Positions 14,201-43,709 of a DNA stretch of 64,000 bases are shown in pieces. The position numbers and the translations under genes are program-made. Positions within the stretch are counted from its first letter, which is position 1; every line of letters begins with the position of its first letter. A model generated the notes under the pieces. It was not told the DNA's origin, ran no database searches, and saw nothing but the letters and a program-made list of their open reading frames with translations. The stretch is from NCBI GenBank assembly GCA_021292105.1, contig CM037861.1, forward strand, positions 57,457,245-57,521,244, in the 5' to 3' direction. The DNA comes from Anadara kagoshimensis (lineage: Eukaryota > Mollusca > Bivalvia > Arcoida > Arcidae).

Positions 14201-16557
14201 GAGATGAATCATCTATAATGTTTCTATCAATCCTAATGGCTTCTTCCTTGGTTATTTCATGTTGTGATCTTAAATTGATATGTTCTTTTGATTTTTTCTT
14301 ACTACTTGATAGTCTAAATTGAAACCTAGAAACTGAGAAATATGTATCAATCAATTATCAATTTTTAACTTGTTTGAAAATTGTAAAAACAAAATTAAGA
14401 AGCAAAAAATCTTTGCTTACATGGCTAATGAATGTACCTAGTCATATAACAGGATAGAGAACTATGCAGGGAAAACTACTAATGTTTTAGGGGGTGAAAT
14501 CAGCCGGCTGCTGGCACTTAAGGAAACCACTATGTATGGCATAGGTTCTATACAATTTACAGGTGAGATGTCAGTTTATCATGTTACTTAACCAGTGTAG
14601 TGGCCTGAGTAGTTCCTTACTGTAAGTTACTGTACACGACACCACTGTAAGACTTCATCTTCTTAAGGTGCTTCTATTTGTGTTTCAGCTCAATTATTTT
14701 TCTTCTGATTGTGCACATAATTACTCATATTTCATTTGATTAGACAAAGTCTTACCAAAATATTTTTAAAAGACGCTGTGGTGACCTAATGGATAAGATG
14801 TCAGTCTACAAATCCAGGGTCTCTCATGGCTGTGAGTTCGAGCCCTGCTCAGAACACATGTGGGAAAGTGAATTTTCCTTGTCGTTGGCCTTTACTGGTT
14901 TACCTAAACCATGTCAGCTCTTAGTTTTCGGTACTCTAGAGTTGGTAGTCCAAATTTTTATCCTTAGTAGAGTATTTGCTTATAAATGCATGCTAATTAC
15001 ATGTATAGGCGTGGTAAGTTTTGACCCAGGTCAAAGTTTAATGAGTAGTGTGGTCCTTAAAAAGGGTTTACTGACAATTTCAACCATGTAAAAGTCCATC
15101 GGGGAAGGTATTTTTGTGTGATTTCTCTCAAAAATTGTGGTGGGGGTTGATTTTTAATTCTTCACACAGTTTCCATACATACATTCCATGCTATTCCTAA
15201 CATTCATCAACGACATGCCCGAAGTAACAGAATCTGATGTCCGACTGTTTGCTGACGACTCACTACTGTACAGGAAAATTAGATCTACCTCTGACACTGA
15301 TGTGCTCCAAAAAGATTTAACATCTCTAGAACACTGGGAGAATCAATGGCAGATGGAATTCAATCCTGAAAAGTGTACAGTTATCCATGTCACTAACAAA
15401 AGAAGACCAGCTATTACCAAGTACCAGCTCCATAATCATGTCTTGGGTGTAGAACACTGCAGCAAATACCTGGGAGTCACCATTAGTGAAGATCTACGAT
15501 GGGACAACCATATCAACGCCATCAAAAAAAAGCAAATCGGGCCCTTGGTTTCATCAAGCGGAATCTAAGAGATTGTAAACCAGCCATTAAATCCTCTGCC
15601 TACCAAGCCGTAGTTAGACCAACGCTTGAGTATGCTGCTTCCGTGTGGGACCCACATACACAAAAGAACATCCAGGCCATAGAACAAGTTCAACGACGAA
15701 CCGCTAGATTTGTCACCAACAACTACTCAGACTACACCCGAGGTAGTGTCACTAAGATGATAGAATAACTGAAATGGGATCCACTTCAACTCAGAAGATC
15801 CAAGAGCAGGCTTGCGATGCTATATAAGATCAAGCACGGCCTAGTGGACATTCCAGGAGACAAATATCTAATAGCAAGCGACAGTCGAACTAGAGGAGGA
15901 CACAGATACAGACAGCATCGTACCAACAAGGACTGTTACAGATACTCCTTCTTCCCCAGGACAATACAACAATGGAACAGACTCCCATCAGAGGTTGCAG
16001 CAGCTCCATCAGCAGCAGACTTCATGCTCTTACTGGATAGGCTACCAGTAGACCATCCTACATTCCACTAAACCTACAGCTGTTTCCTAATTTTAATTGT
16101 AAATAGTGCCTTATGAGGTTTTTAACCATCCATCTCATGCTTGAGTAAGTGTTACACTCCAGGAGGAGGCCTACTCAATAAACGGAAGAAGAAGAAGAAG
16201 AAGATTCGACATATCGATTATTGAGCTCTGGTCACACAAAACATAGGGTCACTTAAAATTAGATATATTCCAAATATTTTTTCTATACAACACAATAATA
16301 AAATAAACTTTATTTATATTCGATACAATTTAACAAACAACATGAGCTCTGTAGAGCTTTTACAATTGACTTACATAAATTACATAGCACACTTATTGGT
16401 TTAAATTTGTACTTTTTCTGTAGTGGGTCGGAAGCTCATTTCAATATTCTCATTCTATATATACCATACCTGATCGATTTGATTCGGGAAAAGTGTGATA
16501 CTTAGCATCTACATGTACATCTGACAAATACAAATCTGCTTCATCAGAAAGATCCAT
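8082..16557 (-). CDS. METTL22: METTL22-like protein-lysine methyltransferase, eight exons
   Basis: Exons in transcript order are 16557-16470, 14332-13925, 13270-13230, 12197-12053, 11158-11030, 9738-9664, 9186-9087 and 8262-8082. They join in frame to 388 codons plus stop; human METTL22 has about 404. The start ATG begins MDLSDEADLYLSDVH, matching the family's SDVHL-type N-terminus. The class I methyltransferase domain starts at about residue 180 with VWRGALILADY. The SAM-binding motif I is VLDLGSGTG (203-211), followed by REIDW and the post-I motif ADVVYDED (294-301) typical of the MTF16 lysine methyltransferases. The C-terminus (FVFTVTDLDIVTPAY onward) also follows the family. The known human enzyme methylates KIN17. 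The acidic, basic-patched N-terminal region suggests nuclear localisation (inference). All splice sites are GT-AG except a GC donor after exon 7. Divergent with the fucosidase gene. Confidence 0.93.
8325..8520 (-). pseudogene. Decayed tandem copy of METTL22 exon 8
   Basis: The blocks 8020-8320 and 8325-8520 are duplicates, sharing TTGCTA.GGTAA, ATAATAATTTTAAGACAT, the exon segment and the intron edge TGTCAT.ACTGAA. The extra copy carries a 5-bp insertion (TAAAT) after the ACAGACCT sequence, which shifts the frame, and lacks the 3' half of the exon. It lies between exon 7 and the real exon 8. Splicing to it would give a truncated C-terminus. Confidence 0.85.
8760..9012 (-). mobile_element. Degenerate SINE-like repeat in METTL22 intron 7
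   Basis: The right end reads on the minus strand as a tRNA-like head (GGTAGAGTGTCCAATGTAAG), with a degenerate box B (GGTTTCAAACCC) inside. The rest is unalignable by eye to the other SINE families here. Low-confidence assignment. Confidence 0.4.
9087..9186 (-). CDS. METTL22: METTL22 exon 7 with GC splice donor
   Basis: It encodes VYDEDITEAF through TLYVTLEKR. The exon ends in the first two bases of an Arg codon and is followed by GCAAGT rather than GT. The flanking context (AACG|GCAAGT) is otherwise a strong donor, and the frame runs cleanly into exon 8, which supports a GC-AG intron rather than a misplaced boundary. Confidence 0.88.
9345..9580 (+). mobile_element. tRNA-headed SINE in METTL22 intron 6
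   Basis: GCCTCAGTGGCTAAGTGGTC resembles box A and AGATTCGAATCCTACTT resembles box B. The body (TCCTAGTGTGAGAAAGTTTG, GATGGTGATTTTGGGATGG) recurs at about 17845-17955. A (GT) run of about 20 bp at 9559-9580 ends the copy. Confidence 0.65.
11330..11625 (-). mobile_element. SINE (family B) in METTL22 intron 4
   Basis: Shares CACTTATATCGAGATG, TATAGGTGAAGTGGCAGCAA and the antisense tRNA-like head (CACTCCACCAACTG) with the copies at 25845-26185 and 54045-54398. The tail ends in a GATTGATTGATTGAA run. Confidence 0.7.
11785..12008 (-). repeat. Two tandem SINE-tail fragments
   Basis: The block CTCCACCATCCCTGAACTGA followed by CCACATTGATTTAAGTGAAA occurs twice (about 11820-11905 and 11930-12000) with roughly 80% identity by eye. 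The same tail appears near 7115-7190. Confidence 0.55.
12293..12500 (-). mobile_element. 5'-truncated retroelement tail (family A), minus
   Basis: Starts with AAACATACTAATCCATGTCC (reverse of the family 3' end) and contains CACCTCCTGTTTAGCTAGCT. It lies in METTL22 intron 3 and carries a short internal AAAGTAAAAAGTAAAA duplication. Confidence 0.75.
12604..12720 (+). repeat. Three 39-bp tandem units
   Basis: The unit starts TTTGGACAGGCATTGGAATA and continues AATGTCAAGTGGTGTTTCC. Three consecutive copies give a spurious 60-codon ORF with repeated RHWNKCQVVFP. Confidence 0.93.
12749..13055 (+). repeat. 31-bp minisatellite, about 10 units, in METTL22 intron 3
   Basis: The unit is AAGAACTGACCACCTCACTA followed by TAAATGGATCT. 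Units alternate irregularly between ATGGAT and ATCGAT, so two sequence classes are interspersed. The unit resembles the SINE tail GAACTGACCACCTTGATATAA, which suggests the array grew from a SINE 3' end. Confidence 0.95.
13701..13816 (+). mobile_element. 5'-truncated retroelement tail (family A)
   Basis: Starts GGCCTCACTTCCCTGGTGAA and ends GGATTAGTATGTATGTTTTT then GAT. It lies in METTL22 intron 2. Confidence 0.75.
13925..14332 (-). CDS. METTL22: METTL22 exon 2, repeat-rich acidic/basic linker
   Basis: It encodes residues about 30-165. After a Lys/Arg-rich stretch (SSSKKKSKEH) it contains two PRKRQRQEL-like basic blocks and four copies of a VTPVDEDGD-like acidic block, ending DEDIYIITI before the EHSLATELL motif of exon 3. 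The human protein has a single comparable DEDGDLDV patch here, so the repeats look like a lineage-specific expansion. The RKRQRQ blocks could act as nuclear localisation signals (inference). The boundary phases (2 bases in, 1 base out) match exons 1 and 3. Confidence 0.88.
14774..14945 (+). mobile_element. tRNA-headed SINE in METTL22 intron 1
   Basis: TGACCTAATGGATAAGATGT resembles box A and GTGAGTTCGAGCCCTGCTC is a good box B, about 45 bp apart, as in tRNA-derived SINE heads. The downstream body does not match the other families here. The 100-codon ORF through it is spurious. Confidence 0.7.
15182..16076 (+). mobile_element. 5'-truncated Jockey-like LINE, reverse transcriptase C-terminal part
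   Basis: Translation gives the C-terminal half of a non-LTR reverse transcriptase. It begins in the palm with FINDMPE and LFADDSLLY (the FADD catalytic box), continues with W..QWQMEFN..KC and YLGVTI, then runs to RPTLEYAASVWDP and the ending NRLPSEV. The frame is broken once at the A-run near 15525-15533, consistent with one missing base, and once by TAA near 15765. It lacks everything upstream of the palm, so it is a dead insertion in METTL22 intron 1, antisense to that gene. The (GAA)n run at 16183-16203 is probably its 3' repeat tail. Confidence 0.9.
16183..16203 (+). repeat. (GAA)n tail of the LINE
   Basis: GGAAGAAGAAGAAGAAGAAG follows the LINE 3' UTR (CTCAATAAAC) directly, as the short 3' microsatellite typical of some non-LTR elements. 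Confidence 0.75.
16470..16557 (-). CDS. METTL22: METTL22 exon 1
   Basis: ATG at 16557-16555 opens MDLSDEADLYLSDVHVD. The SDVH motif is shared with vertebrate METTL22 N-termini. The exon ends TCA G before the donor GTATGG. The single leftover G pairs with TT of exon 2. Confidence 0.88.
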
Positions 16558-16703
16558 TTACTTGCCAGTACTTAACAACCGGAAGTGTTTACAGAAAACC
16601 GAAAGTAGAATTACGTCCCCTTGACCAGGTGCGCAGTAAAACGTTTTATATTGATTGTTTTGGTCTTGTGACTGAAATCATTGATACGTGAAAAAAGCAA
16701 ACA
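16558..16703. promoter_or_regulatory. Probable bidirectional METTL22/FUCA promoter
   Basis: Only 146 bp separate the two divergent start codons, so both transcription starts must lie in or very close to this stretch. It contains CCGGAAGT at 16579-16586, a consensus ETS/GABP-type site common in bidirectional housekeeping promoters, and an E-box-like CAGGTG near 16626. I see no TATA box clearly placed for either gene. Promoter function is inferred from position. Confidence 0.6.
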
Positions 16704-17056
16704 ATGGTTTATACTTGTAAAATGGCTACGTTTTTGGCATTAATCTCTTTATTAACACTTTCAAACGCAGTTAAATATGAGCCTAACTGGAAATCGTTAG
16801 ATTCTCGACCACTACCGGCATGGTATGACAACTCCAAAATTGGAATATTCCTTCACTGGGGTGTATTTTCAGTACCCGCTTTTAACGGTGCTTGGTTCTG
16901 GTTCTATTGGAGAACACAGAAAAAGAAGGCATTTGTTGATTTTATGGCAAAGAACTATCCTCCAGGTTTTACGTATGCAGACTTTGCCAAAAGTTTTAGA
17001 GCAGAGTTTTATAATCCGGATGTGTGGGCAGATATTTTCAGCGCATCAGGAGCAAA
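16704..17056 (+). CDS. FUCA1: Fucosidase exon 1 (signal peptide and first GH29 motif)
   Basis: Contains the signal peptide, the [14 protein letters not shown] motif and [11 protein letters not shown], and ends GCA AA before the donor GTTAGT. The split Lys codon is completed by the first base of exon 2. Confidence 0.92.
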
Positions 17057-20000
17057 GTTAGTATTTTTTAAAATTTTAGTTTACACTGTGAACATTTTGA
17101 TATATGATATACGAATCTGTCTGCCATGTGCAACATGCATGCATAGCACAGTATCAGGGTAAAAAATAGACCAAATTATTTCTGTCATCGCCTTTTCGTC
17201 GATGAAATAGGGAGACGTGGGTCTCAAGGTCAAAACTAAATATTTATGCATATGGGCAATAGATTTTTGAGCATCTTCATATATTACTGCAAATATAATT
17301 TTAAATTTTGTCTTCCCTCTTGCCAGAGACATAAAGTTAGTCACTCACTTTTCAAAGGTCATTGGTTTTCTCATGGCACTGGTTTCCGATCAATCTAGAT
17401 TAGCTTAATGTAAGTAAAAATTTCTTGACAGTGGCATAATATTTCATTACTCCACTAACAAAAGAACTTTACCTGCTCATTGCCCTGAGTGCACTGCAAA
17501 GGTAAAAATTTCTGCCACTTCACTTATAGCTGGTGACATCTGGGTATAAATGAAACATTTTTGACTGGGACATTAGACCCCGTTCAATCAATCTTTATAT
17601 TACAGATATGTGGTATTGGTGAGTAAGCACCATGAAGGTTTTACATTATGGCCATCTAAATACTCCTGGAATTGGAACGCAAAAGATGTGGGACCAAACA
17701 GAGATTTAGTGGGTATGTATTTATATATGTATGTAGTTTGATTACTCATACTCTATAAGTGAATCATTAATTATATGGCCTCTTTCTTTTTTGATCGCTA
17801 ATAGCTCTCCTGCACAAAATGCTAAGCAGTCTAAAGCACTGTTACAAATAACAAATCATGGGGCTGCTTACCGCCTAGGTTGGAACCACACTGATGCAGT
17901 TCCTAGTGTTAGAAAGTTCTTCAGTATGCTTGTTGAAGAGTGGTGGTTTTCTCTTAGTACAGTCCAACTTGCCTCAAAGGCCACCTCTGTATAAGGGCCA
18001 CATGCTTATAAAGGCCAGTAGCATTGTATACCAATTGTTCTTTATTCATATTATTTAAATCTGTATATAAAGGCCACCTGCCCATAAAGGCAACTTTTAC
18101 TGGTTCCCTTGGGTGGCTGTTATAGACAGGTTTGATTGTATTCTGATTTTCTCCACCATCAACTGATGGTTTTCAAATTGTGTTGCATTACTTGAGTTAT
18201 AATTGAACAAACAAACAATTGATATTTATATCAGTTACCGACCTAGAAATGCTATTTAAATTCCTCTAGATCTGTTATATAAAATAAAAACAAAAATGTT
18301 TTTATATGTAAACATTTAACCAATGCTCAATCTGGATGAGACCCTTGCATCATTGACCCCAAAATAAAAAACTTTGTCCCACAAAATTACTGTCTCTTGG
18401 TAAAAAAGTGACCTATGTTTGAGTTTAGTATAAATCCAGTTTTTCTTCTTTTTAATTAACAGTCAACCTGTCTTAAAGATCACCTCAATATAAGGCCCCA
18501 CCACTTTAAAAGGCGGGAAAACATAATCCCAAATGGCTCTTTATTCATATCATTTGAACCTCTATATAAAGGTCACTGAACCATAAAGACCACTTTCACT
18601 GGTTCCCTTAGACAACCTTTATAGACAGCTTTGACTGTATATTTTTTCTTTGACTTAATACTGATCTTTTAAATTAATTATTTTGACCCAATTTATGAAA
18701 ACAGGACCCCTGATTTTTCAGGGCTTGGTGCCAGAATGACCCCTCCAATTACATTTCTGAAAATTGAATACTTCTCAATATTTTCAGATTTTCCAAAGTA
18801 TGTGCACCTATAATAGAAAATAAAGAAATATTGACTTGGGGATTTGAATTAACGATTAGATCCATATTTGAAACTCGATGAAAATATACAGCTCACATTG
18901 ATATACGATAACAGACCAAGATATTTTAAAAGTGTTTATTTTTTATTTATAGGAGATCTGGCTACTGCTGTGAGGAAGAAATCATTACACTTTGGGATGT
19001 ATCATTCTTTGCTTGAGTTCTATAACCCATTGTACCTACAAGACAAAGCTAATGGTTTCAAAACACAGACTTTTGTTGAGGTATGCTTAATGAAGTGCAG
19101 TATGATGTAAATGCATCTATATTGCTTAGTTAAGTTTAACCCATTGGTATGTAACAAGAAAGGGAAAATGCAGTGGCCAAACCAGGACTTGGACCAGGAA
19201 CCTTCCCAATGCTAGTGGGACACTCTACCCACTGAGCTACCTGACCACCTATCGAGTCCGGCCTGCCACATTCCTCCCCCCCCCTTTTTTTTTTTTTTTG
19301 GTTCAAATCCCTTGAAACGTCCCCCTTGGACCAACCTGTTGGTCGGCCACTTCCCAGGGTGGGACGAGCCCACAAATGTAACCTATTCAATATTAGCAGT
19401 TCGATCTATCCACTGAGCTACCTGGCCACCTATTGAGTCCAGCCCGCCACAGGTATCCACATACAATCTCGAACAAATATTTAACCTGTATGTATGAAAA
19501 ACTTAAGAAACAGAAATTTTTGAAAATAAAAATGTCATTTGAACTAATTATTATAACCAATTTTTGTGTCATATATATTTTTTTGTCTTTGTTTTTGGTT
19601 TGTAAAATAATTGAAACAAAAAAAATAACCAAAAAATCTTTGGAAGACTAATTTTTATGGGTTGTAATTATTTTCATATTATATATGTATTTGTACTGAT
19701 AGATTTACTAATGTGTACCTGAAGTTTAATTTTTAAAGCAGACCCTAACAGCGGAATATAAAACATAGCACCATCTGTCAGCAAAATGTGCGTAAGTTTG
19801 CACACGGCACTGTACTTCACAGAAAGAAATCTAAGAATCCTCGATACTAGCGTTTGTTATACCCGTTAAAATAAAAAATAATTAAAATATTAACGTAAAT
19901 TCTATATAGAATCAATTAAATACACCTGCCATTTTGTTTTTTAATGAAATATTATAATTTTAAGGTCTTATCAATCAATTATTGTAAAAGACATCATAGG

Positions 20001-25639: not shown

Positions 25640-28600
25640 TATTATAATATATTATATGTAGCAATCTCGGGACAAGGTATGATTAATTTGCAAAAATCCT
25701 TGCATTTAATTCTGCCTTACTGCTGAAAATTAGGAGTTCTCTTTAATAATTGACCATTGAACCTCTGCATGAGATATGTACTTAGCCTCAGGTGAGCGTT
25801 AAGGCCCATGGGCCTCTTGTTAATGAAAATAAAGTTTGAGTTTGATCGATTGATTGAATGGGGTTTTATGTTTCAGTCAAGAATATTTTACTTATATCAA
25901 GATGACACCAACTATAGGTGAAGCGGCAGAAATTTTGAATTTGCAGTGTGTTTAGAGCAATGTGCAGAGAAGGGGTTTTAATGTGTCATGCATGCCAGAC
26001 ACGGATATCCCCCCCCCCCGACACTCTGAAGGACCTCATGACTTTCTTTCTTAATGCTGAGCGCTTGGTGAAAGAATAGTCGCAACCTTTTACGTCTTGA
26101 TCAGACCCCGACCAGGGTTAGAACCCATCACCTCCCCCACATAAGGAATCAGCACTCTACCAACTGAACTACTGATAACCTACAAAATGAAATTAGTTTT
26201 TAAATGTATTTTTTTTGTTATTACTTTTAGGAAAGGTCCTGGCTCACAAATGGGAGAATTGCATGACAGTAGATAAACATGCCTGGGCTTACCGTAGAGA
26301 TGTGGACTTAAATGACTTTTATACTATTGAAGAATTACTAGCTGTGTTAGCACAGACAATAAGGTACATACATTACAGTAGTGTAGCATTCCCCCACTTG
26401 AGGCAGTCTGTGTAAGAGTCTGGCAATCCCATAGAAATCCTTAAGCAACTGACATACTTTCTGACGCTAAGATTTGCTGCCATTTTTGACCTCTTTTCCT
26501 CAGCTGCTGAAGCATTACAGTATTTAAGAATGCAATAAAACCTCCATTTTCTTCTATTATCAATTCAGTCAAATTTATGTATACTGTAAATCAGGACATT
26601 TTTAATAAATATTTTATTATCTGTCATCATGGTCATCCATGGTGCCATTTATTTATAATCAGTCATCCATTTTTTCATTTTAATGTATCCATGGTGCCAT
26701 TTGTAATCAGTCATCCATTTATTCATTGTAATGTATCCATGGTGCCATTTATTTATAATCAGTCATCCATTTATACATTGTAATGTATCCATGGTGCCAT
26801 TTATTTATAATCAGTCATCCATTTATTCATTGTAATGTATCAATGGTGCCATTTATTTATAATCAGTCATCCATTTATTCATTGTAATGTATCAATGGTG
26901 CCATTTATTTATAATCAGTCATCCATTTATACATTGTAATGTATCCATGGTGCCATTCATAATCAGTCATCCATTTATTCATTGTAATGTATCCATGGTA
27001 CCATTTATTCGTAATCAGTCATCAATTTATTCATTGTAATGTATCCATGGTGCCATTTATTCATAATCAGTCATCCATTTATTCATTGTAATGTATCCAT
27101 GGTGCCATTTATTCATAATCTGTCGCTCATTTATTCTTCTTCATGTATCCTGTTGAGGCCTGCAATGTGTCAGACATGGAATCTGGGCCTTTGATAACTT
27201 TTAATTCGATACTTTAGGTATTTAATGTCAAGGATACTTTTACTGTAAAACACTTTGTAGAAGTTAAATGCTTATTCAATGGAGTCAAACTGGACCAATG
27301 GTCTGAAAATGTAAATATACTTTTATTAATTTTAATTTATAATCTGTGTTCTGTTCTATAAAATTAAAAAAAGACAGCATTATACTGGTCTAATATTTGT
27401 GGATATTTATTAATCTTCTACATAGTCATATATTAATTACATTTAATCTGGTTTTTTTAACAGCTGTGGTGGTAATTTACTGCTCAATGTTGGTCCAACT
27501 GCTGACGGTCGTATTGTTCCTATATTTGAAGAAAGGTTACGTCAGATGGGGAAATGGCTGGAAGTAAATGGAGAGGCAATCTATGAATCTAAGCCATGGT
27601 CTCAATGTCAGGATAATGTCACTAACACTACTTGGTAAGGGATGTGATTGTAGCGGTCTTGGTAGCTCTGTGGTAGAGAACTCACCTATAGTGTGAGAGG
27701 TCCTGGGTTCAATCCCCGGTCCGACCCTGCATTTTTTCTATTTCCTGTTACATTTTGGGGGCTCGTCTGACCCTGGGAAGTGGCCAACCAACAGGTTGGT
27801 CCCAGGGTGGAATGATAATTAAAAATTGGTTGAATAGTACTACAGGCAGTTTAAGTGTTTATACTGAATCAGAAATAAACAATGTACATTATGAATAGAA
27901 TTATATAAAGGTGTTTAACTTAAAGGAAACTGGCATTGTAACAGACATTATTTGAAAATGGCAACAATAATTGTTTGTTCTTAGATACCGATGGATACAA
28001 TTTCAACTTTTTTACCAAATTGGAATATTAATATGGATCTGTCTGTCCCTCCATCTGTCTGTATGTCCCTCCATCTGTCTTTATGTCCATCTGTCTGTCC
28101 ATCCATCTGTCTGTATGTCCATCTGTCTGTCTGTCCAGCTGTCTGTCCATCCATCTGTCTGTATGTCCATCTGTCTGTATGTCCATCTGTCTGCCCATCC
28201 ATCTGTCTTTATGTCCATCTGTCTGTCCATCCATCTGTCTGTATGTCCATCCAGGATATTGGTGCACATCATGAACCAAAATGTGTTTGTGTCAGGTGAA
28301 CTTTATGCTTTTTGGGAGACTTGTTTCTCCTTCCTTCTTTCCTTTTGAAGTATCCCCTGTACCACATTAGTGTCAGTGCCATAAAGTGCTTAACCAAGAT
28401 ATAACTTTATGAAACTTTACCCATGGTTTCGTATTTTGCTACATAATCAAGATGATATTGACTTGGCTTTAATCCCACTTCATTTACTTATACTTTTAGC
28501 TTCTGCTGTCATTATATCAGTGAAAAGGGAAAAGATGTTGGCTATTATAATAAATCACGTTTTTACTTGTTCACTGTGTCACGTTTTTTTTTTATTTATT

Positions 28601-28886
28601 CAATTACAATTACAGGTATACCACAAAGAATGATGGAACCAGCAAAACAGTGTATGCCATTGTGTTGAACTGGCCAAAAGAAACAGCCAATGGATATATT
28701 CTCTCACTTGGACTTCCCCAGCCAACCTCAGCAACAACAGTCAAGATGCTTGGTTACAGTAATTACTTCAACCATACACCACAAAAAGGAGGTGGTATCA
28801 ATATAGAGTTTCCATTGATACCATTCAAGAAAATGCCTACTTTATGGGCATGGGTTTTGAAAATAGAAGGCTTGGAAAATGCATAA
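16704..28886 (+). CDS. FUCA1: GH29 alpha-L-fucosidase, eight exons, exon 4 frame broken
   Basis: Exons: 16704-17056, 17606-17712, 18953-19080, 22310-22441, 23884-23981, 26231-26363, 27464-27634, 28616-28886. Apart from exon 4 all phases agree; allowing for two missing bases the product is 464 residues (human FUCA1 466). An N-terminal signal peptide ([17 protein letters not shown], if the second Met at 16722 is used) predicts secretion or lysosomal targeting. Family landmarks are [28 protein letters not shown] with [10 protein letters not shown], the nucleophile motif IWSDGDWE in exon 4, [19 protein letters not shown] and [11 protein letters not shown]. The enzyme hydrolyses terminal alpha-L-fucose from glycoconjugates. 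The start at 16704 has A at -3 and G at +4; 16722 is nearly as good. In invertebrates FUCA1 and FUCA2 are usually not separable, so the symbol means FUCA-like. Confidence 0.92.
17440..17585 (+). mobile_element. Truncated SINE (family B) in fucosidase intron 1
   Basis: Carries the family B body in sense orientation (CACTTATAGCTGGTGACATC, TTTTTGACTGGGACATTAGA, then CAATCAATC) and lacks the tRNA-like head. It ends about 20 bp before the exon 2 acceptor. Confidence 0.65.
17845..17957 (+). mobile_element. SINE fragment abutting a MITE
   Basis: GTTCCTAGTGTTAGAAAGTT and GAAGAGTGGTGGTTTTCT match the body of the SINE at 9345-9580. The copy stops exactly where the MITE at 17960 begins. Confidence 0.55.
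17960..18138. mobile_element. TA-flanked MITE copy 1 (179 bp)
   Basis: The left end CAGTCCAACTTGCCTC pairs with the reverse complement of the right end CAATCAAACCTGTCTATAAC, with TA on both sides. Internal sequences are ATAAAGGCCACCTG and CTGGTTCCCTTGGGTGG. It shares sequence and length with copy 2, 320 bp downstream. Confidence 0.82.
18460..18637. mobile_element. TA-flanked MITE copy 2 (178 bp)
   Basis: The left end CAGTCAACCTGTCTTAAAGA pairs with the reverse complement of the right end CAGTCAAAGCTGTCTATAAA; TA follows on the right and the left flank is AA. Contains CTCTTTATTCATAT and CACTGGTTCCCTTAG as in copy 1. Both are Tc1/mariner-type miniature elements in fucosidase intron 2. Confidence 0.82.
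19140..19455 (-). mobile_element. Two tandem tRNA-headed SINEs, minus strand
   Basis: On the minus strand, heads reading GGTAGCTCAGTGGATAGATC (right copy) and GGTAGCTCAGTGGGTAGAGT (left copy) each follow a GGCGGGCTGGACTC/GGCAGGCCGGACTC lead. The right copy has the core CCCTGGGAAGTGGCCGACCA then ACAGGTTGGTCC, shared with the SINE at 27652-27830. A long A-run and G-run (on the minus strand) separate the two. Confidence 0.8.
19660..21180. other. Fucosidase intron 3, no feature recognised
   Basis: AT-rich intronic DNA with no convincing exon or repeat structure that I can name. Near 20730-20770 there is a short SINE-like CAGCCAGAGCGGTTGGTAAG segment with no clear box B. Confidence 0.45.
21246..21800 (+). 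repeat. (GAT)n trinucleotide-rich region, intron 3
   Basis: Several hundred bases of imperfect GATGAT repeats interrupted by related longer blocks (ATATGAGGAGTTATGATGAT, GTGGTGGTGATACGAGTTCT). The blocks themselves recur about three times, so this is a compound minisatellite. ORFs encoding His/Ile or Ser runs here are artefacts. Confidence 0.95.
22310..22441 (+). CDS. FUCA1: Fucosidase exon 4 with two single-base deletions
   Basis: Bounded by acceptor GATAG and donor GGTACTT. It is 132 bp where frame continuity needs 134. Relative to the conserved protein, one base is missing at about 22317-22318 (before [20 protein letters not shown]) and one at about 22389-22391 (after GDWEA, before [16 protein letters not shown]). 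Read literally, the frame hits a stop after ten codons. Both lesions can be explained by one missing A. The exon carries the nucleophile Asp of IWSDGDWE. Confidence 0.85.
22442..23883. other. Fucosidase intron 4
   Basis: No coding signal. A degenerate SINE-tail-like stretch lies around 23370-23550 (GAGTGGAGTGTTTTACACCA; ACTTGGCCACTAAGGCTTA reads on the minus strand like a tRNA head). Nothing else recognised. Confidence 0.45.
23884..23981 (+). CDS. FUCA1: Fucosidase exon 5
   Basis: The acceptor TTTTTATAG precedes it. Its first base completes the Ser codon from exon 4. It encodes [13 protein letters not shown] and [16 protein letters not shown], matching the FUCA disulfide-containing loop. Confidence 0.92.
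24600..25515 (+). repeat. About six 145-bp tandem units
   Basis: Each unit contains GGTTCAAAGGTCAAGGTCAC, TGGTTAATTATCTCGAAAAC, AACTTTTTGTATAGACATGT, AATATTGTAGG and ATCATTTTGATATATAGATT. The GGTTCAAAGG landmark falls near 24790, 24934, 25080, 25225 and 25368, a spacing of 143-146 bp, with an earlier partial unit near 24645. Confidence 0.93.
25572..25640. repeat. (TA)n microsatellite
   Basis: More than 30 consecutive AT dinucleotides followed by degenerate ATTAATATATTATAATATAT, inside the CTCACCTGAG element. Confidence 0.97.
25845..26185 (-). mobile_element. SINE (family B) in fucosidase intron 5
   Basis: The antisense tRNA head is at the right (CACTCTACCAACTGAACTAC). The box B region (AGGGTTAGAACCC) and body (TCAAGATGACACCAACTATA) match the copies at 11330 and 54045. 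It ends on the left in GATCGATTGATTGAATGG. A C-run of nine lies at about 26010. It is inserted just downstream of the CTCACCTGAG element and 45 bp upstream of exon 6. Confidence 0.8.
26231..26363 (+). CDS. FUCA1: Fucosidase exon 6
   Basis: The acceptor TTACTTTTAG precedes it and the donor AAG|GTACAT follows. It encodes [20 protein letters not shown] and [12 protein letters not shown], aligned to the family's KWE.C.S.D..SWGYRRD region. Confidence 0.92.
26634..27150 (+). repeat. 52-bp minisatellite, about ten units, intron 6
   Basis: The unit reads ATCCATGGTGCCATTTATTT then ATAATCAGTCATCCATTTAT and TCATTGTAATGT. Variants have CCATGG/CAATGG, ATTCAT/ATACAT and occasional deletion of the TTTATTTA block. 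ORFs here are repeat artefacts. Confidence 0.95.
27464..27634 (+). CDS. FUCA1: Fucosidase exon 7
   Basis: The acceptor TTTTTTTAACAG precedes it and the donor CTTG|GTAAGG follows. It encodes [20 protein letters not shown] and [20 protein letters not shown], the most conserved C-terminal block of GH29 animal enzymes. Confidence 0.93.
27652..27830 (+). mobile_element. tRNA-headed SINE in intron 7
   Basis: The head reads GGTAGCTCTGTGGTAGAGAA, and CTCAC-CTATAGT-GTGAG forms a perfect five-pair anticodon-like stem. GGGTTCAATCCCCGG follows as box B in a near-perfect T arm. The tail contains GGGCTCGTCTGACCCTGGGA then AGTGGCCAACCAACAGGTTG, shared with the minus-strand copies at 19140-19455. It begins about 17 bp after the exon 7 donor. 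Confidence 0.85.
28036..28256 (+). repeat. (CTGT)-rich simple repeat, intron 7
   Basis: Alternating CCATCTGTCTGTATGTCCAT and CTGTCTGTCCATCCATCTGT blocks. It has open frames on both strands in several phases (Cys/Leu/Ser/Val-rich on plus, Asp/Gly/Arg/Trp/Thr-rich on minus), all artefacts of the repeat. Confidence 0.95.
28616..28886 (+). CDS. FUCA1: Fucosidase exon 8 and stop
   Basis: The acceptor CAATTACAG precedes it. Its first base completes the Trp codon of exon 7. It encodes [20 protein letters not shown], the beta-sandwich C-terminal domain, and ends IEGLENA then TAA. Confidence 0.93.
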
Positions 28887-35650: not shown

Positions 35651-36514
35651 CTTGATTGATTTTTCGGTTTAAATCTTTAAAGACGAAATTTGATGCGAAA
35701 ATGTGACCAAAACTAACAATAACGTCATGATTTTTGACGATATTGCTAAAGGATCGGCAAACTTGCAAAATTTAACGTTATCGTGTCGTAAACTAGGAGT
35801 GATGTGTTTGTGCTTCTCGCTGTTATAGTAAATATATTAATTTTATTATTTGTATACAAATTACTTCATCAATTAGATTATTTTATATTCTAGTCACTAT
35901 GGAATAATAATTATGATAGAAATAATAATATTCAGAAACATTATTACTTCGAATATCAGAAGAACAAGGCCTTATCATCCGAAATAAGAGTCAATGATGA
36001 TACTTCGAAAATGCAAGAACAAGGGTTATTCAGAGTCAAGGAAATATTATCAATGGCTACATTTGAAACATGAAAAAGATATTGAACTACTGAGACAAAA
36101 TCTTGACTAGAGTGAAGAAATCATTATAATTCAAATCATTTTATTTGGCCAAAGTGAGTTACTGTTAAAAGACCACCGAGATCGAAAATACGTCACTCAG
36201 AAACTCCGTACGCAATTCTGCAAATACACCCCGTATATCGGTATAAATTTTCATGACGTCGTTGCAAATAAATTTTAAAAGTCATAGTATATGAAAAATA
36301 TGAAAATTTTTAATTTTTAAAATCTGAAAGAATTTTGAAAATCGAAACAATATTAAAAAAGTTATCATCAATTAAATTTTGTGAAAAAAACGTCTTTATC
36401 AATAGGCAAATCTTCAGTGAATCACTGGTATCTAGATCTGTTGAATTTATCCGTGTATCATATTTATGATACTTTTCTTGTATATTTTCATTAATATTTT
36501 TAATCGATAAATAT

Positions 36515-37455
36515 AGCCCAAGAGCTAGTGGGGTTTGAAATATGTGTCAATGGCCAAAAGCTTTGAAGGTTGTTTCTGATAGAAAAATGTCTGTAGTTTT
36601 CGAATTTGGGCGTCTTGTGAATGAACTCGTTTCCGATTTTTTTCAGACGCGAGTTTTTACACTAGAATCGCATTTTTCAGCCGGTTTTTCGGTAATTTGA
36701 TAATTCTGCATTATGGACGCGATATGGCCTTAAAATGTCTTATTACTGATGCGGTTATCAAGAATTATGATCATTGTTGACATTTAAGTTAAAAACTTCT
36801 TGATACATTTCAGATTTTTTTTTAAAATAACTATTTTAGGAAAAAAATAGACCAAAAATTTTGCGTTTTTAATATTTTGCCCTCTTTTATGTCTTATAAA
36901 AAAATAATAAAAGCATTTAAGTGAAATGTTTTACCATATTGTCACAGCCTAATGTGTTTTGCATTCAATAAAAGTAGCTGCATATCATTTGGTAGGAAAT
37001 TGCGGCACCCACAGTGGAAAAACTTTCCCCTACCCCAAAAATTGCAAATTTCTCAAAAAATCGATCTTTACTACAAATTTTGCTATTAGTTGCCATACTG
37101 ATTGTTATACCGTGTAAGCTTTAATACTTGGGTGACAACATTGAAGACCTCTAACTAAAAACTTCTTGTTAAGCATTCAATCTCAATTTTGTGGCCAATT
37201 TTAAACAACCGAGTTTTGCGTTTTTACTTAATCTTTATTCGTTAAAGTCTTGTAGCGCATTCAAAAAAAGCCTGATTATCAATATACTATTTTATTTAGA
37301 ATCCCTGATGTTTGTGCTTTATTGTGCAAGTATAATGTATAACACAATCGTCACACAAACCCTTTCACCACAATTTATTCTTCCCCCTACCCCATATGCA
37401 ATAAATAAGCGAGTTCGCGAGATATTGATTTTACACTTGTGCGTTCTCAGGCAGT
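36515..37455 (+). repeat. Left inverted arm
   Basis: Reverse complement of 42620-43563. It is near-perfect up to about 37350 (through GCTTTATTGTGCAAGTATAA) and diverged thereafter. The ORF 37191-37457 (MANFKQPSF...) has a mirror twin in the right arm and is not an independent gene. Confidence 0.92.
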
Positions 37456-37954
37456 GAGATTTTAAACACGGTAGAGTGTTATAACGTAAATTTGTACTTG
37501 AAACATATAGTAAATTACGCTGTTAGCTTGTTTATTCAATGCTTTGATTTTTTGTATTATTAAGCAATGATAGTGCCACGCCCTTTTGTATGACTCGGCA
37601 GATGGCGCTGCGCAAAGCGTTTGTGTTACGTTTTCTGTCATTGCAAATCACACGTGGTTGCAATTATAGATACTTTCATATGGTTGTTGTTTATGATAAG
37701 TAAGAAAAAACTATTCACCCCTTTTTTCTATTGTTTTGTTACCGTTTATATTTCGTGTGAACAAGTTGATTTTATTTAATATTTGTTTTTAAAAAGAATC
37801 CGTGTTCACAATAGAATCAATGAAGTTTTGACGCAGATAAGTAATCTGTTTGTTAATTCTATTTGATTCCGTGACTGAATTAAAATCACTGTAAATAATA
37901 TTTTGCGATTTGTTTGTGATAACTCATTGTCATTTCAATTAGAAGTGTTGCAAA

Positions 37955-40900
37955 ATGGCCAGCACACGGCTGGATACATCTAAGGGGAAACAGATATTAC
38001 AGGGCGATAGCACAGATGAAACAAATCTTGTTTGTTGCCTTCATGTCGATAAACGTTTCCAAGATATAGAAATTAAACCTTTTGATGAAACAACATGGAG
38101 TAAAGTGGCAAAAGTTGCTGAATATCGTCTTTCGAAAACAAAATCCCACAAATATAAACAAATTTGTCAAGATCTTCCTCAAAACTTTGATCCTAAAACC
38201 AATGGTTATCACAGAATGTGTTACAAGAACTTCACTGCTGTCTCAAAAAAAACTAGAGTCTTTTTCCACTGTAGAAGTAGAAGAAGTTTCTTACACTTTA
38301 AGATCCCACACTGAACATTTATCGGACGAAACTTCCTCCTCCGGTATTTTTCTTCCCGTATGTTTGTTTTGTGGCCTCCTGACGAAGGGTAAGAAAAGGG
38401 AACAGTTAGGCAATTGTGAAAGTTTGGAAGCGGGAGAAAAAATAAAAATGCTGCAATGGTTCTGGGTGATACAGATATGATTGCCAGAGTTTGTGATATA
38501 GATTTTGTTGCTAAAGAGGTTAAATATCACCATAGCTGCCGAAAACATTACTTAAATCTTTCTGAGAGGTGTATACCCGGGTCTGCTAAGACAGAATATG
38601 GCAACATTAGGCTAGGACACGAAAAAGCATTTAAATGGTTGACCGAATACATAAATAAAAACGTTATAGCACAAGGTCAAGCTGTAACAATTGCCTCCTT
38701 GTATGAATATTACACTACAATGCTGATGGACATTGGTCTTGATTGCTCCTCATATACCATCCAGACTTTAGAAGTAAAACTTCTAAATCACTTCAAAGAT
38801 GATATTTGCATGAGTAAAATAGGTAAACGACAAGGCAAAATATTATATCCAAGCTTTCTAGATACAGATCAGATTATAGGTTTCCATAATACGTTTTTAT
38901 TAAATTCCAAAGTCACTGAAGCTGCATACCAGTTGCGAAATACAATATTAGAAATGTCAAAGACATGTCCCCAATTACAGAACCCATTGACTGTAAATGA
39001 AATACAGAAAGGCCAAGCTAACCCCCCAGACATACTTATGCAGTTTTTTAAAACTCTATATACAGGGTCTTCAACAAAAGAACCTTCTGAAAGAATGAAT
39101 AGATGCATCAGTTCAGCAGCAGATGATGCTTTGTTTGCTGTAACCAATGGCGAAATAAAGCCATCAAAACATTTATGTCTTGGACTGGGTTTTAAAAGTA
39201 TGACTGGTAGTAGGAAAATTATTGAAGTACTAAATCATTTAGGGCACTCAATAAGTTACCATGTTGCGGAGACACTTGAAACTGAACTTGCAATGACAAT
39301 ATCAGACAGGAATCAGCTAACTCCTGATGGATTACTGAAAATTCCAAACTTGTCAACCGGAACGGCTTGGGATAATTATGATGAAAACACCGAGACTTTG
39401 TCTGGAAGCGGAACTTTGCACGACACAGTTGGAATATGTTACCAGAACACTCCCGACGAACAACATTCAATGGGGGACTCTCTAGGAATTCCACAAGTAT
39501 CCACTACACAAACAAAGTCATTGAAACGTAAACGCTCTTTAGATATTGAGGACCCTATTTTAGAATCTTACAGAAAGCGTCCAAAAATAACAAAATTTCA
39601 ATATCCCGTAAAAGCAATTTCGGACCCCTCTAATTTAAATGAGACCAGAAAAAGGGATTTAACATGGGTGATTTGTCACCATTTATTTTCTAATATACCC
39701 ATGTGGTCAGGATGGAATTCTCTAATCACAGTAGATCATCTACCAGAGCAAGTGATAGGCTATATGGACAATATAAGTTTGCCACCGACCCGATTAGATG
39801 TGGTGTCGGAAACATTACGTCGATCGCAGATTGTGGCACGGGAATGTTCTGATAACACAGCAATTGTCCACTATGATCTTGCCATAGCTAAACCAGCGAT
39901 GCAGATACAATCGGAAGAATCACCAAAGTACGACAATATTTTCATATGTTTTGGTCCTTTCCATATAATGTTGGCATATTTTGGCGCTCTTGGTCACTTA
40001 ATTGAGGGCTCTGGCGGACCATATGTGCTAACCGAGACCAAAGTTCTGGCAGAAGGGTCTCTAAATGGGTTCATAAAAGGGAAGCATTATAACAGATGTC
40101 AGAGAATGCATACTATATTATCTCTTTCTTTCCGTATTCTCCATTTTCGGTCTTTTCTGGAAGAGCATGGTCAGATATCTGAATCTTTATACGAGCAGTT
40201 AGAACAATTCATTACAAATACTTCTTCAGAAGAAATGCAAAACGTTCTAGAGCAAGAAAATTTAAAATCTATTTTTGATATGTATGAAGCCTTTTCCAAT
40301 GACACAAGAACTGGAAACCATGGATCAACAGCACAGTATTGGTTTATGTATATTGAATTAGTTGAACTTCTGTTACTTTTCAGTAGATCTTGTCGAACTA
40401 ACGATCTACCTTTATTTACTTACTGCTTAGGAAAAATGTGTCCAGTATTTTTTGCAGCTAATAGACCAAACTATGCAAGATGGATGACACGCTATCACTT
40501 AAATTTACTTAACATTGATATAAGTCATCCACAAGCAAGAGCAATGCTTGAGAATGGTGGTTTGTCTATAAGACGCTCGAATAAATCATTTTCCAGAATT
40601 CCAGTGGACATGACACTTGAGCAGACAATCAATGCTGATGCTGCATCTCGTCTAACTGGCATTTCTGCATTCAGCCAGTCATATACGGCCAGGCGAAGAT
40701 GGATGATTACACGAAGTGTCCGCAGTGCTATCGTTGGTGCTCTTCTCTCAAAAACTGGAATCCGGAAAAAGGGGGATGTGAATCAAGAGCTCAAGCCGTC
40801 GCGAATTCAGAGAGATAATAAAGATGTAAGTAGTTTGATCGACTGTATTAAAGCAACTAAGAATCCGTTTGATACAGAGATAAGAAATGAGGATCTCCTG

Positions 40901-42589
40901 TGCATATCAACTGGTAACAGAGTCAAAGATGATGTGAAAAATGAGATACTTAGTTGTGTAAAATATGGCGAGCAATCTTTTCACGACTTTAGAAATGGCT
41001 GTTTTGCAGATCCCTCTAGATTTGAAAAACCTATTACAAGAAACAAATTGCGCACTTTTGCATCTTTGGCACTTAAGGTTCGGGTTGAGGTGAAAGCAAA
41101 GAAAATCATACAGCTACAGTGTTCACGTGATCTATTTGGTAGGCTTTTGTTTTTGGCAACGACAACAGATATAAACTTGCAGAAAGTTTTTGAATATCCT
41201 CTCACTCCCGTGCCGCCAGCTCTTGCACAAATTGACGGGAATATGAATAAAACCGACAAATCAATACTTATGAAAATGTTAGAGAGCAAGGCTCATTCTG
41301 ATCCTCCAGCTGCAAATCAAATTGATGCTTATGTCGTTGATGCCATGTTCCTTATACAGTTGCTGTCAAACCTACCAGATACTTTTGAAGGTGTAGCCAA
41401 AACCATTCTCAAGCTATTATGTAAACTGGCAAAAGAAATACACTTTGTTTGTGACACATATGTCCATCCATCCATCAAAGATATTGAAAGAGATATGCGA
41501 GGAGAGAGCAGTGGACCAGATATTGTAGTAATGGGCCCAAAACAAAAGCGACCTCATGATTTCCGTTCAGCTTTGAAATCTGCTAATTTCAAGAGGTCAT
41601 TACTATCGTTTTTGCTACAAGAATGGAAGAATGATAACTATGCTGACATTCTTGCAGGCCATACATTATATTATGCAACAGAGGACCACTGCCATCAATT
41701 CTATTGCGAAAATGATGCAACAGTAGTGTGCAGTGAAGTGTCCAATCTTGCCTGTACCCACGAGGAGGCAGATACCAGGATCACCTTACATGTGCAATAC
41801 ATTGCCTCAAGGTCCGATTCTCCTAACGTAGTGGTTAGAGCAAATGACACGGATGTAATGGTTATTTTATTGTATCATTGTCACCAAATACATGCAAACA
41901 TATGGATGGATTCAGGCACTGACGGCACCAATACTAGGCGATTTATTGATCTAACAAAACTGTCCAATGAAATTGGGATCGAAATGTGCCAAGTTCTTCC
42001 AGCTATCCATGCTTTCACTGGATGTGATTATACTGCAGCATTTCTTAGAAAAGGTAAAATTAGGCCTTATAATATCGTTGAAAAAAGTGCAACTTTCAGA
42101 AGCGTTTTCTCAAATATTGGAACAAATCAAAGAGTTAATGAAAGAGATATGAAGGTAATGGAATCTTTTGTCTGTGAAATGTATGGCAAAAAAAACATTA
42201 AAACAGTAAATGAGGCACGATTTGCCATTTTCAGAGAGAAATACGCTCCAACAAATCAAACTGACCCATTAGAAAAGCTCAAAGGAGCCGATCCGAGTTC
42301 ACTACCTCCTTGTAAAAGTGTTCTTGTTCAGAAAATCCTCCGAACAGAATATGTTGCATATTTTTGGAAACATGCCAATTGCAGTTGTCCTACATTAAAT
42401 ACTCCACAAGAAAATGGATGGAAAAAAGAAAATAACAAGTATGCGATTCACTGGTTTGAAGGTGAACAGATTCCGAAAGATATAAGACTGAAGATGGACA
42501 GTACAACTTTTACAGAGGATGACATGGGAGAAGATGAGGATGTACGTGAATCCGACAGTAGTGATAGTGAAGACACTGATGATGAATGA
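37955..42589 (+). CDS. Giant transposon-encoded protein with Cys/His clusters and FEN/PIN-like acidic motifs
   Basis: An uninterrupted frame of 1377 codons runs from 38456 to 42589. The protein clearly starts earlier: a same-phase segment from 37955 is linked through a middle segment in another frame (to about 38445). The frame changes fall at an A8 run (38245-38252) and an A-rich stretch (about 38437-38449), one base extra then one base short; the whole is about 1545 codons. Cys/His clusters occur in pairs (YHRMCYKNF; CLFCG ... KYHHSCRKHY). Numbered from 38456: a basic patch KRKRSLDIED, a central block with FFAANRPNYARW near residue 670, then HEEADTRI (1102-1109), RANDTDVMV (1128-1136) and HAFTGCDYT (1185-1193), and an acidic tail. 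I recall similar proteins, many per genome, as uncharacterised predictions in molluscs, cnidarians and fish. The HEEAD/NDTDV/GCDYT order resembles XPG-I/FEN1 active sites. Role as transposase is inferred from the flanking arms. Confidence 0.82.
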
Positions 42590-42619
42590 AATTATAATTC
42601 TGAATGAATACGAGTTATT

Positions 42620-43563
42620 TTGAACCAGCCTGTCTAAGAGCACTAACACAGTATATCCCGTGAATTCGCATATCGTTAGCATATTGGGGTAGGGGAAGAA
42701 TAAATCGTGGGTAATGGGTTAATGTGACGATTTTGTTACACATTATACTTGCACAATAAAGCACACACATCAGGGATTCTAAATAAAATAGTATATTGAT
42801 AATCAGGCTTTTTTTGAATGCGCTACAAGACTTTAACGAATAAAGATTAAGTAAAAACGCAAAACTCGGTTGTTTAAAATTGGCCACAAAATTGAGATTG
42901 AATGCTTAACAAGAAGTTTTTAGTTAGAGGTCTTCAATGTTGTCACCCAAGTATTAAAGCTTACACGGTATAACAATCAGTATGGCAACTAATAGCAAAA
43001 TTTGTAGTAAAGATCGATTTTTTGAGAAATTTGCAATTTTTGGGGTAGGGGAAAGTTTTTCCACTGTGGGTGCCGCAATTTCCTACCAAATGATATGCAG
43101 CTACTTTTATTGAATGCAAAACACATTAGGCTGTGACAATATGGTAAAACATTTCACTTAAATGCTTTTATTATTTTTTTATAAGACATAAAAGAGGGCA
43201 AAATATTAAAAACGCAAATTTTTGGTCTATTTTTTTCCTAAAATAGTTATTTTAAAAAAAAATCTGAAATGTATCAAGAAGTTTTTAACTTAAATGTCAA
43301 CAATGATCATAATTCTTGATAACCGCATCAGTAATAAGACATTTTAAGGCCATATCGCGTCCATAATGCAGAATTATCAAATTACCGAAAAACCGGCTGA
43401 AAAATGCGATTCTAGTGTAAAAACTCGCGTCTGAAAAAAAATCGGAAACGAGTTCATTCACAAGACGCCCAAATTCGAAAACTACAGACATTTTTCTATC
43501 AGAAACAACCTTCAAAGCTTTTGGCCATTGACACATATTTCAAACCCCACTAGCTCTTGGGCT
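42620..43563 (-). repeat. Right inverted arm
   Basis: Pairs with 36515-37455. The outer roughly 840 bp are nearly identical to the left arm; the inner part (GTTCTCAGGCAG versus GCTCTTAGACAG) is diverged. Minus-strand ORFs 42615-42887 and 43297-43536 are arm-derived. Confidence 0.92.
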
Positions 43564-43709
43564 AATATTATGTATTTTATTCCCTGCAAGATATTTATCA
43601 AAATTATTACAGTCCCTTTAAGTTATGACTTAGAATAATACCATCAAAGTGCATAGATTTGTACACGCCGTGCGTAACGTCAGCATCCATTTGTACCACT
43701 TGGCCTTAA

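Follow-up and report, generated by a model that had tools for sequence, protein, structure and literature searches.

What kind of transposon carries a single giant gene between inverted arms of almost a kilobase, and how might its protein move it? This question is raised by a 7-kb element in a 64,000-nucleotide stretch of contig CM037861.1 of the bivalve Anadara kagoshimensis (the whole stretch is referred to here as the window). The element is likely to be a complete member of a terminal inverted repeat (TIR) transposon family that has multiplied recently and is autonomous when intact. In its workings this family would resemble AcademX, a lineage of the Academ superfamily, and it very probably falls within that lineage. 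An original prediction, made from the sequence alone, had described it as a large TIR transposon, probably autonomous and recently amplified, and this description is borne out. The coordinates of its features are collected in Table 1.

Ends, duplications and copies

The limits of the element are defined by a comparison of 21 copies, namely the window copy and the first 20 inward-facing pairs of ends in listing order (13 on contig C1 and 7 on C2). In all of them the element runs from TAGCCC to GGGCTA, a T always preceding AGCCC and an A always following GGGCT. When this terminal T and A are counted inside the element, every copy is flanked by a 3-bp target-site duplication (TAA, TAT, TTA, ATA, TAC or TTG), and duplications of 4, 9 and 10 bp each fit none of the copies. 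The original prediction had placed the element at 36515..43563, between duplications reading AATAT. The element is real, but it extends one base further on each side, and the 5-bp duplication has to be given up. With the terminal T and A excluded, it fits a single copy of the 21, that of the window, whose surroundings are AT-rich, and it is a coincidence. A survey of flanking 5-mers, which had been proposed as a check, finds no consistent 5-bp duplication, since the actual duplication is 3 bp long.

The inverted arms are also real and long, although they measure ~0.91 kb and not the ~0.94 kb first proposed. When the two ends of the window copy are aligned by blastn, 897 of 919 positions are identical (98%). 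The outer ~0.8 kb is identical save for homopolymer lengths, and mismatches are confined to the innermost ~110 nt. The switch from identity to divergence is abrupt, near position 37312, which suggests a trace of earlier homogenisation between the arms.

The genome surveyed comprises 1,115,223,567 bases in 36 contigs. The proposed search for other copies with the same ends proved productive: the exact 24-nt end is present 205 times in forward and 205 times in reverse orientation in this 1.1-Gb genome, well above chance (control, 0 and 0). The shorter 11-nt end, AGCCCAAGAGC, is found 224 times forward and 267 times reverse (control, 15 and 21). Among the first 100 places listed for the 11-nt end, on contigs C1 to C3, 80 form 40 inward-facing pairs. 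A length of 7.0 kb is found for 39 of these and 5.4 kb for the remaining one; shortened derivatives that keep both ends are thus rare in this set (1/40). In the 5.4-kb copy (L009), an internal deletion has removed the part corresponding to window positions 36852-38520, from inside the left arm to the beginning of the gene, but both ends and a matching 3-bp duplication are retained. The other 20 places are single matches, 7 of them inside a 49-bp minisatellite. This repeat (L030, C3:58582200-58584300) has 43 copies over the 2.1 kb examined, and 8 of its units hold the 11-nt transposon end. The excess of reverse 11-nt matches was considered as a sign of solo ends and rejected: it is partly due to this unrelated minisatellite, and the 24-nt end is equally frequent on both strands.

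The copies barely differ from one another. In the alignment of the 21, there are 51 differing cells due to substitution in 146,351 bases, and 10 of these are isolated from gaps and from one another. Per 10,000 bases, this amounts to 0.7 to 3.5 changes, a figure in which sequencing errors are counted as well. None of the 51 is common to two copies, and a recent burst is indicated because all substitutions are unshared. If neutral sites change at a rate of a few per billion bases each year, the isolated changes would have taken no more than some tens of thousands of years to build up. Short differences in length are more frequent than substitutions (5 to 32 runs per copy relative to the window copy), and many of them are probably sequencing errors. 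In a best-first protein search, all of the 34 best candidates scored, out of 1,187, show 100% identity, and 24 of them have a 1,549-codon open frame; no older copy was seen among the 34.

Near-identical arms had originally been read as a sign of recent activity or of gene conversion. Recent amplification stands, but the identity of the arms cannot serve as its clock. Exactly 17 arm-to-arm mismatches are found in 15 of the 21 copies and 10 to 20 in five others, while the deleted copy has none over 338 bp. Because the 17 mismatches recur in 15 copies that hardly differ mutually, the arm differences predate the burst, and arm identity is a poor clock for the age of the family. In general, the family looks like a very young invasion and a clean case, with rare shorter derivatives and unshared variants.

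The protein and its relatives

One coding region does fill the middle of the element, as had been predicted, but its ~1545 codons are interrupted in the window copy, where the longest frame has 1,389. Here, the frame from the ATG at 37955 stops after 119 codons. This ATG is in the same frame as the open reading frame (ORF) at 38420-42589, and between the two the window copy departs from that frame; the break, placed from the frames, probably lies roughly between 38250 and 38450. An uninterrupted frame of 1,545 codons is present in 5 of the 21 copies (L011, L019, L025, L026 and L027). Relative to L025, their proteins show no amino-acid difference in L011, L019 and L026, and one in L027. Copy L016 has an open frame of 1,570 codons, the start of which was missed by the anchor used.

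A pattern for relatives of the protein is found at 45 places in the genome (control, 0). Twelve of them were taken (L031-L041 and L043; L042 lies upstream of L035), and for 11 the match to the window protein has an E value of at most 0.01, whereas L032 matches only the L036 piece. Locus L041 and its neighbours L044 and L045 form a 6,859-bp element with arms of ~0.77 kb that are 94 to 96% identical, ends reading TAGTCCCAGAGCTC and a 3-bp duplication, CTA, with no match at 4 bp. Since this element has all of them, long arms, similar ends, a 3-bp duplication and a large protein are common to two families. By eye, the more distant L035, L037, L038 and L043 end in a Cys-rich tail, which is absent from the window family and L041. 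A viral contig (L029) was considered as a further relative and rejected, as its tblastn scores are at chance level and its motif sits among unrelated frames; scans of viral contigs and of genome contigs found no relative.

Judged by its predicted fold, the C-terminal third of the protein is a nuclease of the FEN/XPG type. In the fold comparison, 49 of the 50 matches listed were named Exo1, FEN1, XPG/Rad2, GEN1 or XRN, and the remaining one is a chain of the nucleotide excision repair (NER) dual-incision complex. The window protein holds all five nuclease motifs (VDAM, VCDTY, HEEADTR, NDTDV and GCDYT). In a conservation scan across loci, some of which are broken copies, and with L035 and L043 counted as one family, the metal-binding acids expected of such nucleases are kept in 7/7 at D1012, in 6/6 at E1115 and in 6/6 at D1203. 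The original suggestion of a test against PIN/FEN folds was therefore an apt one.

The middle region may be a transposase core of the DDE/D type. Its sole Pfam match is DUF6589, at E 2.7e-4 with the long frame and 2.9e-5 with the middle alone. The match covers ~240 residues, and the same family is weakly matched in relative L036 and in four of the nine pieces of alignment A1, at E values up to 10, every score given being under the curated cut-off. In this alignment, D318, D321, D730 and E734 are kept in all four groups covered and D486 in all five; E604 and D662 are likewise kept. The likely catalytic D, D and E are D318 or D321, D486 and E734, with a putative helical segment inserted between the last two. 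The original prediction had left the type of the element unassigned and had recognised no DDE-type protein. The weak DUF6589 match and the acids kept in diverged relatives speak against this, although the verdict is not firm, as the fold model of the region is too poor. In the literature searched, DUF6589 was not found, nor were Academ, XPG and transposase found together as whole words. Sequence searches among solved structures stay at chance level (best E 0.55; none; best E 0.074). As for the N-terminal region, no zinc-finger family was found in it by Pfam; the only match, to PF11054, is sub-threshold and taken as chance.

Table 1. Features of the transposon and its gene, in window coordinates
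Feature	Position	Strand	Basis
Whole transposon, 7,051 bp	36514..43564	+	Ends and flanks of 21 copies compared; 24-nt end genome-wide
Left target-site duplication, ATA	36511..36513	.	3-bp duplication in 21/21 copies
Right target-site duplication, ATA	43565..43567	.	3-bp duplication in 21/21 copies
Left terminal inverted repeat, ~0.91 kb	36514..37425	+	blastn, 897/919 identical
Right terminal inverted repeat, ~0.91 kb	42653..43564	-	blastn, 897/919 identical
Transposon gene, broken in window copy (1,545 codons when intact)	37955..42589	+	Frames, translations, 21-copy comparison
Longest open frame in window copy (P0001), 1,389 codons	38420..42589	+	Frames, translation
Cys/His-rich N-terminal region, two finger-like motifs	38027..38590	+	Read by eye in translations; putatively DNA-binding
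Putative DDE/D transposase core	39137..40819	+	Alignment A1 and conservation scan; putative catalytic role
Conserved acids in P0001: D318, D321, D486, D730, E734	D318, 39371-39373; D486, 39875-39877; E734, 40619-40621	+	A1 conservation scan
Weak DUF6589 (PF20231) match	39911..40630	+	E 2.7e-4 to 2.9e-5, under curated cut-off
FEN/XPG (Rad2)-type nuclease domain (predicted)	41258..42409	+	AlphaFold2 model pTM 0.74, fold comparison, motif positions, conservation

Other parts of the window were read by eye. Frames at 16692-17162 and 28554-28886 resemble the first and last exons of an alpha-L-fucosidase gene, and the transposon lies ~7.6 kb downstream of them. A frame at 15158-15568 with an FADDS motif resembles part of a reverse transcriptase of the LINE type.

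Proposed mechanism and alternatives

According to the mechanism proposed, the single 1,545-aa protein would do the whole job of transposition. Its Cys/His-rich N-terminus, which may bind DNA, and the ~0.9-kb arms would unite protein and ends. The DDE/D core in the middle would then cut the TAGCCC ends and join them to a target staggered by 3 bp; the duplication is observed and the catalysis putative. Finally, the C-terminal nuclease, of FEN/XPG type by its predicted fold, might trim or cut flap, bubble or hairpin intermediates. The expansion to ~200 copies is so recent that the 21 compared have no substitution in common.

Several observations weigh against an autonomous Academ-type element of this design. 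Membership in Academ rests on architecture and duplication length, Academ having been compared by description only. Compared with Pfam by sequence, the nuclease part gives no match, and its profile reaches Exo1 at no better than E 0.6, below a ribosomal protein that is unrelated (E 0.38). Some nuclease acids are less well kept, namely D974 of the first motif (4/5, with N in L041) and the first and second D of NDTDV, D1143 (6/8) and D1145 (7/8). In L041 (3321-4704), GSD replaces GCD and N replaces the first-motif D; nuclease residues may thus vary among families. In the middle region, the DUF6589 match scores 20.2 to 23.4 bits, under the curated cut-off of 27, and belongs to a family with no assigned function, while the structure model (pLDDT 44.5, pTM 0.36) is too poor for a test of the RNase H fold. 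Lastly, 16 of the 21 copies, including that of the window, have no demonstrated intact frame.

A bolder version of this reading would have the family currently mobile, after a recent entry and an explosion to ~200 copies, with its chemistry split between a DDE-like core and a flap endonuclease of its own. The FEN/XPG domain would make a strand cut in excision or in the 3-bp gap repair that other transposons leave to the host. Taken as a whole, this version appears unlikely. The element might also belong, as a DDE/D TIR transposon that carries a FEN/XPG nuclease, to a superfamily near to, yet distinct from, Academ, a placement to which we give rather little credence. It draws on the comparison with Academ being by description, the common features being the 3-bp duplication, the arms and the nuclease fold. 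Against it, the published pairing of a nuclease with duplications of 3-4 bp is found here (PMC10045372, in excerpt), and the many relatives (45 pattern places, control 0) are as expected where Academ expanded, in bivalves (PMC10294476, in excerpt).

In a further alternative, the FEN/XPG nuclease would be the main strand-cutting enzyme and the middle region structural or DNA-binding, so that the transposon would be of a non-DDE kind, as suspected in the original prediction. The nuclease fold is indeed well supported, the fold model of the middle is poor, and its Pfam match is weak and to a DUF family. Nevertheless, integration of the DDE/D type is usually recognised by terminal inverted repeats combined with a fixed duplication of 3 bp, four to five diverged groups keep acids in the order D, D, E, and it is the nuclease motifs from which L041 deviates at two places. 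This alternative is hard to credit. Finally, near-identical copies produced by the assembly are most improbable: scattered short length differences could be sequencing error, but the 21 copies all have individual flanks, each has a matching 3-bp duplication of its own, and matches are spread over many contigs.

To our knowledge, only a few known elements of the Academ type are evidently live. The ~200 copies, several with uninterrupted frames, and the matched duplications in 21/21 offer natural material on the role of the nuclease, and the family should be useful for probing how a transposase-like protein bearing a FEN/XPG nuclease works.

Comparison with known systems

With the FEN1/Exo1/XPG (Rad2) nucleases, the predicted domain of the element shares 8 to 15% identity among the matches listed, and, unlike in that family, it is part of a transposon protein. 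Polinton/Maverick elements carry several genes, including polymerase B and integrase. By contrast, the element has one long coding region with no Pfam match to polymerase B or integrase; the original prediction was right to set Polintons aside. Kolobok elements duplicate TTAA, whereas the duplications here are of 3 bp and of several sequences, as given above.

The nuclease of AcademX is of the XPG type. In the published descriptions, available as excerpts, Academ is listed among the superfamilies with a DDD/E transposase (PMC9587614), and a RecQ helicase in Academ is mentioned (PMC3627910). Duplications are described as 3 or 4 bp long in AcademX and 9 or 10 bp in AcademH, and are tied to the encoded nuclease and helicase (PMC10045372, citing Kojima 2020). 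AcademH, of the same superfamily by that excerpted description, thus differs in its helicase and its 9 or 10 bp from the 3 bp found here, and no Pfam match to a helicase was found in the element's protein. Among the molluscs studied, Academ is nearly restricted to bivalves, with 100 curated elements of mean length 5,565 bp (PMC10294476, in excerpt); at 7.05 kb, the element is longer than this mean of 5.6 kb. Like AcademX, as described in PMC10045372 (in excerpt), it is a TIR DNA transposon with a 3-bp duplication and an encoded nuclease, while the ~0.91-kb arms, the single protein of 1,545 aa and the ~200 closely similar copies are specific traits of the window family. Rather than a new kind of element, it most likely represents a young addition to a class already known, Academ.
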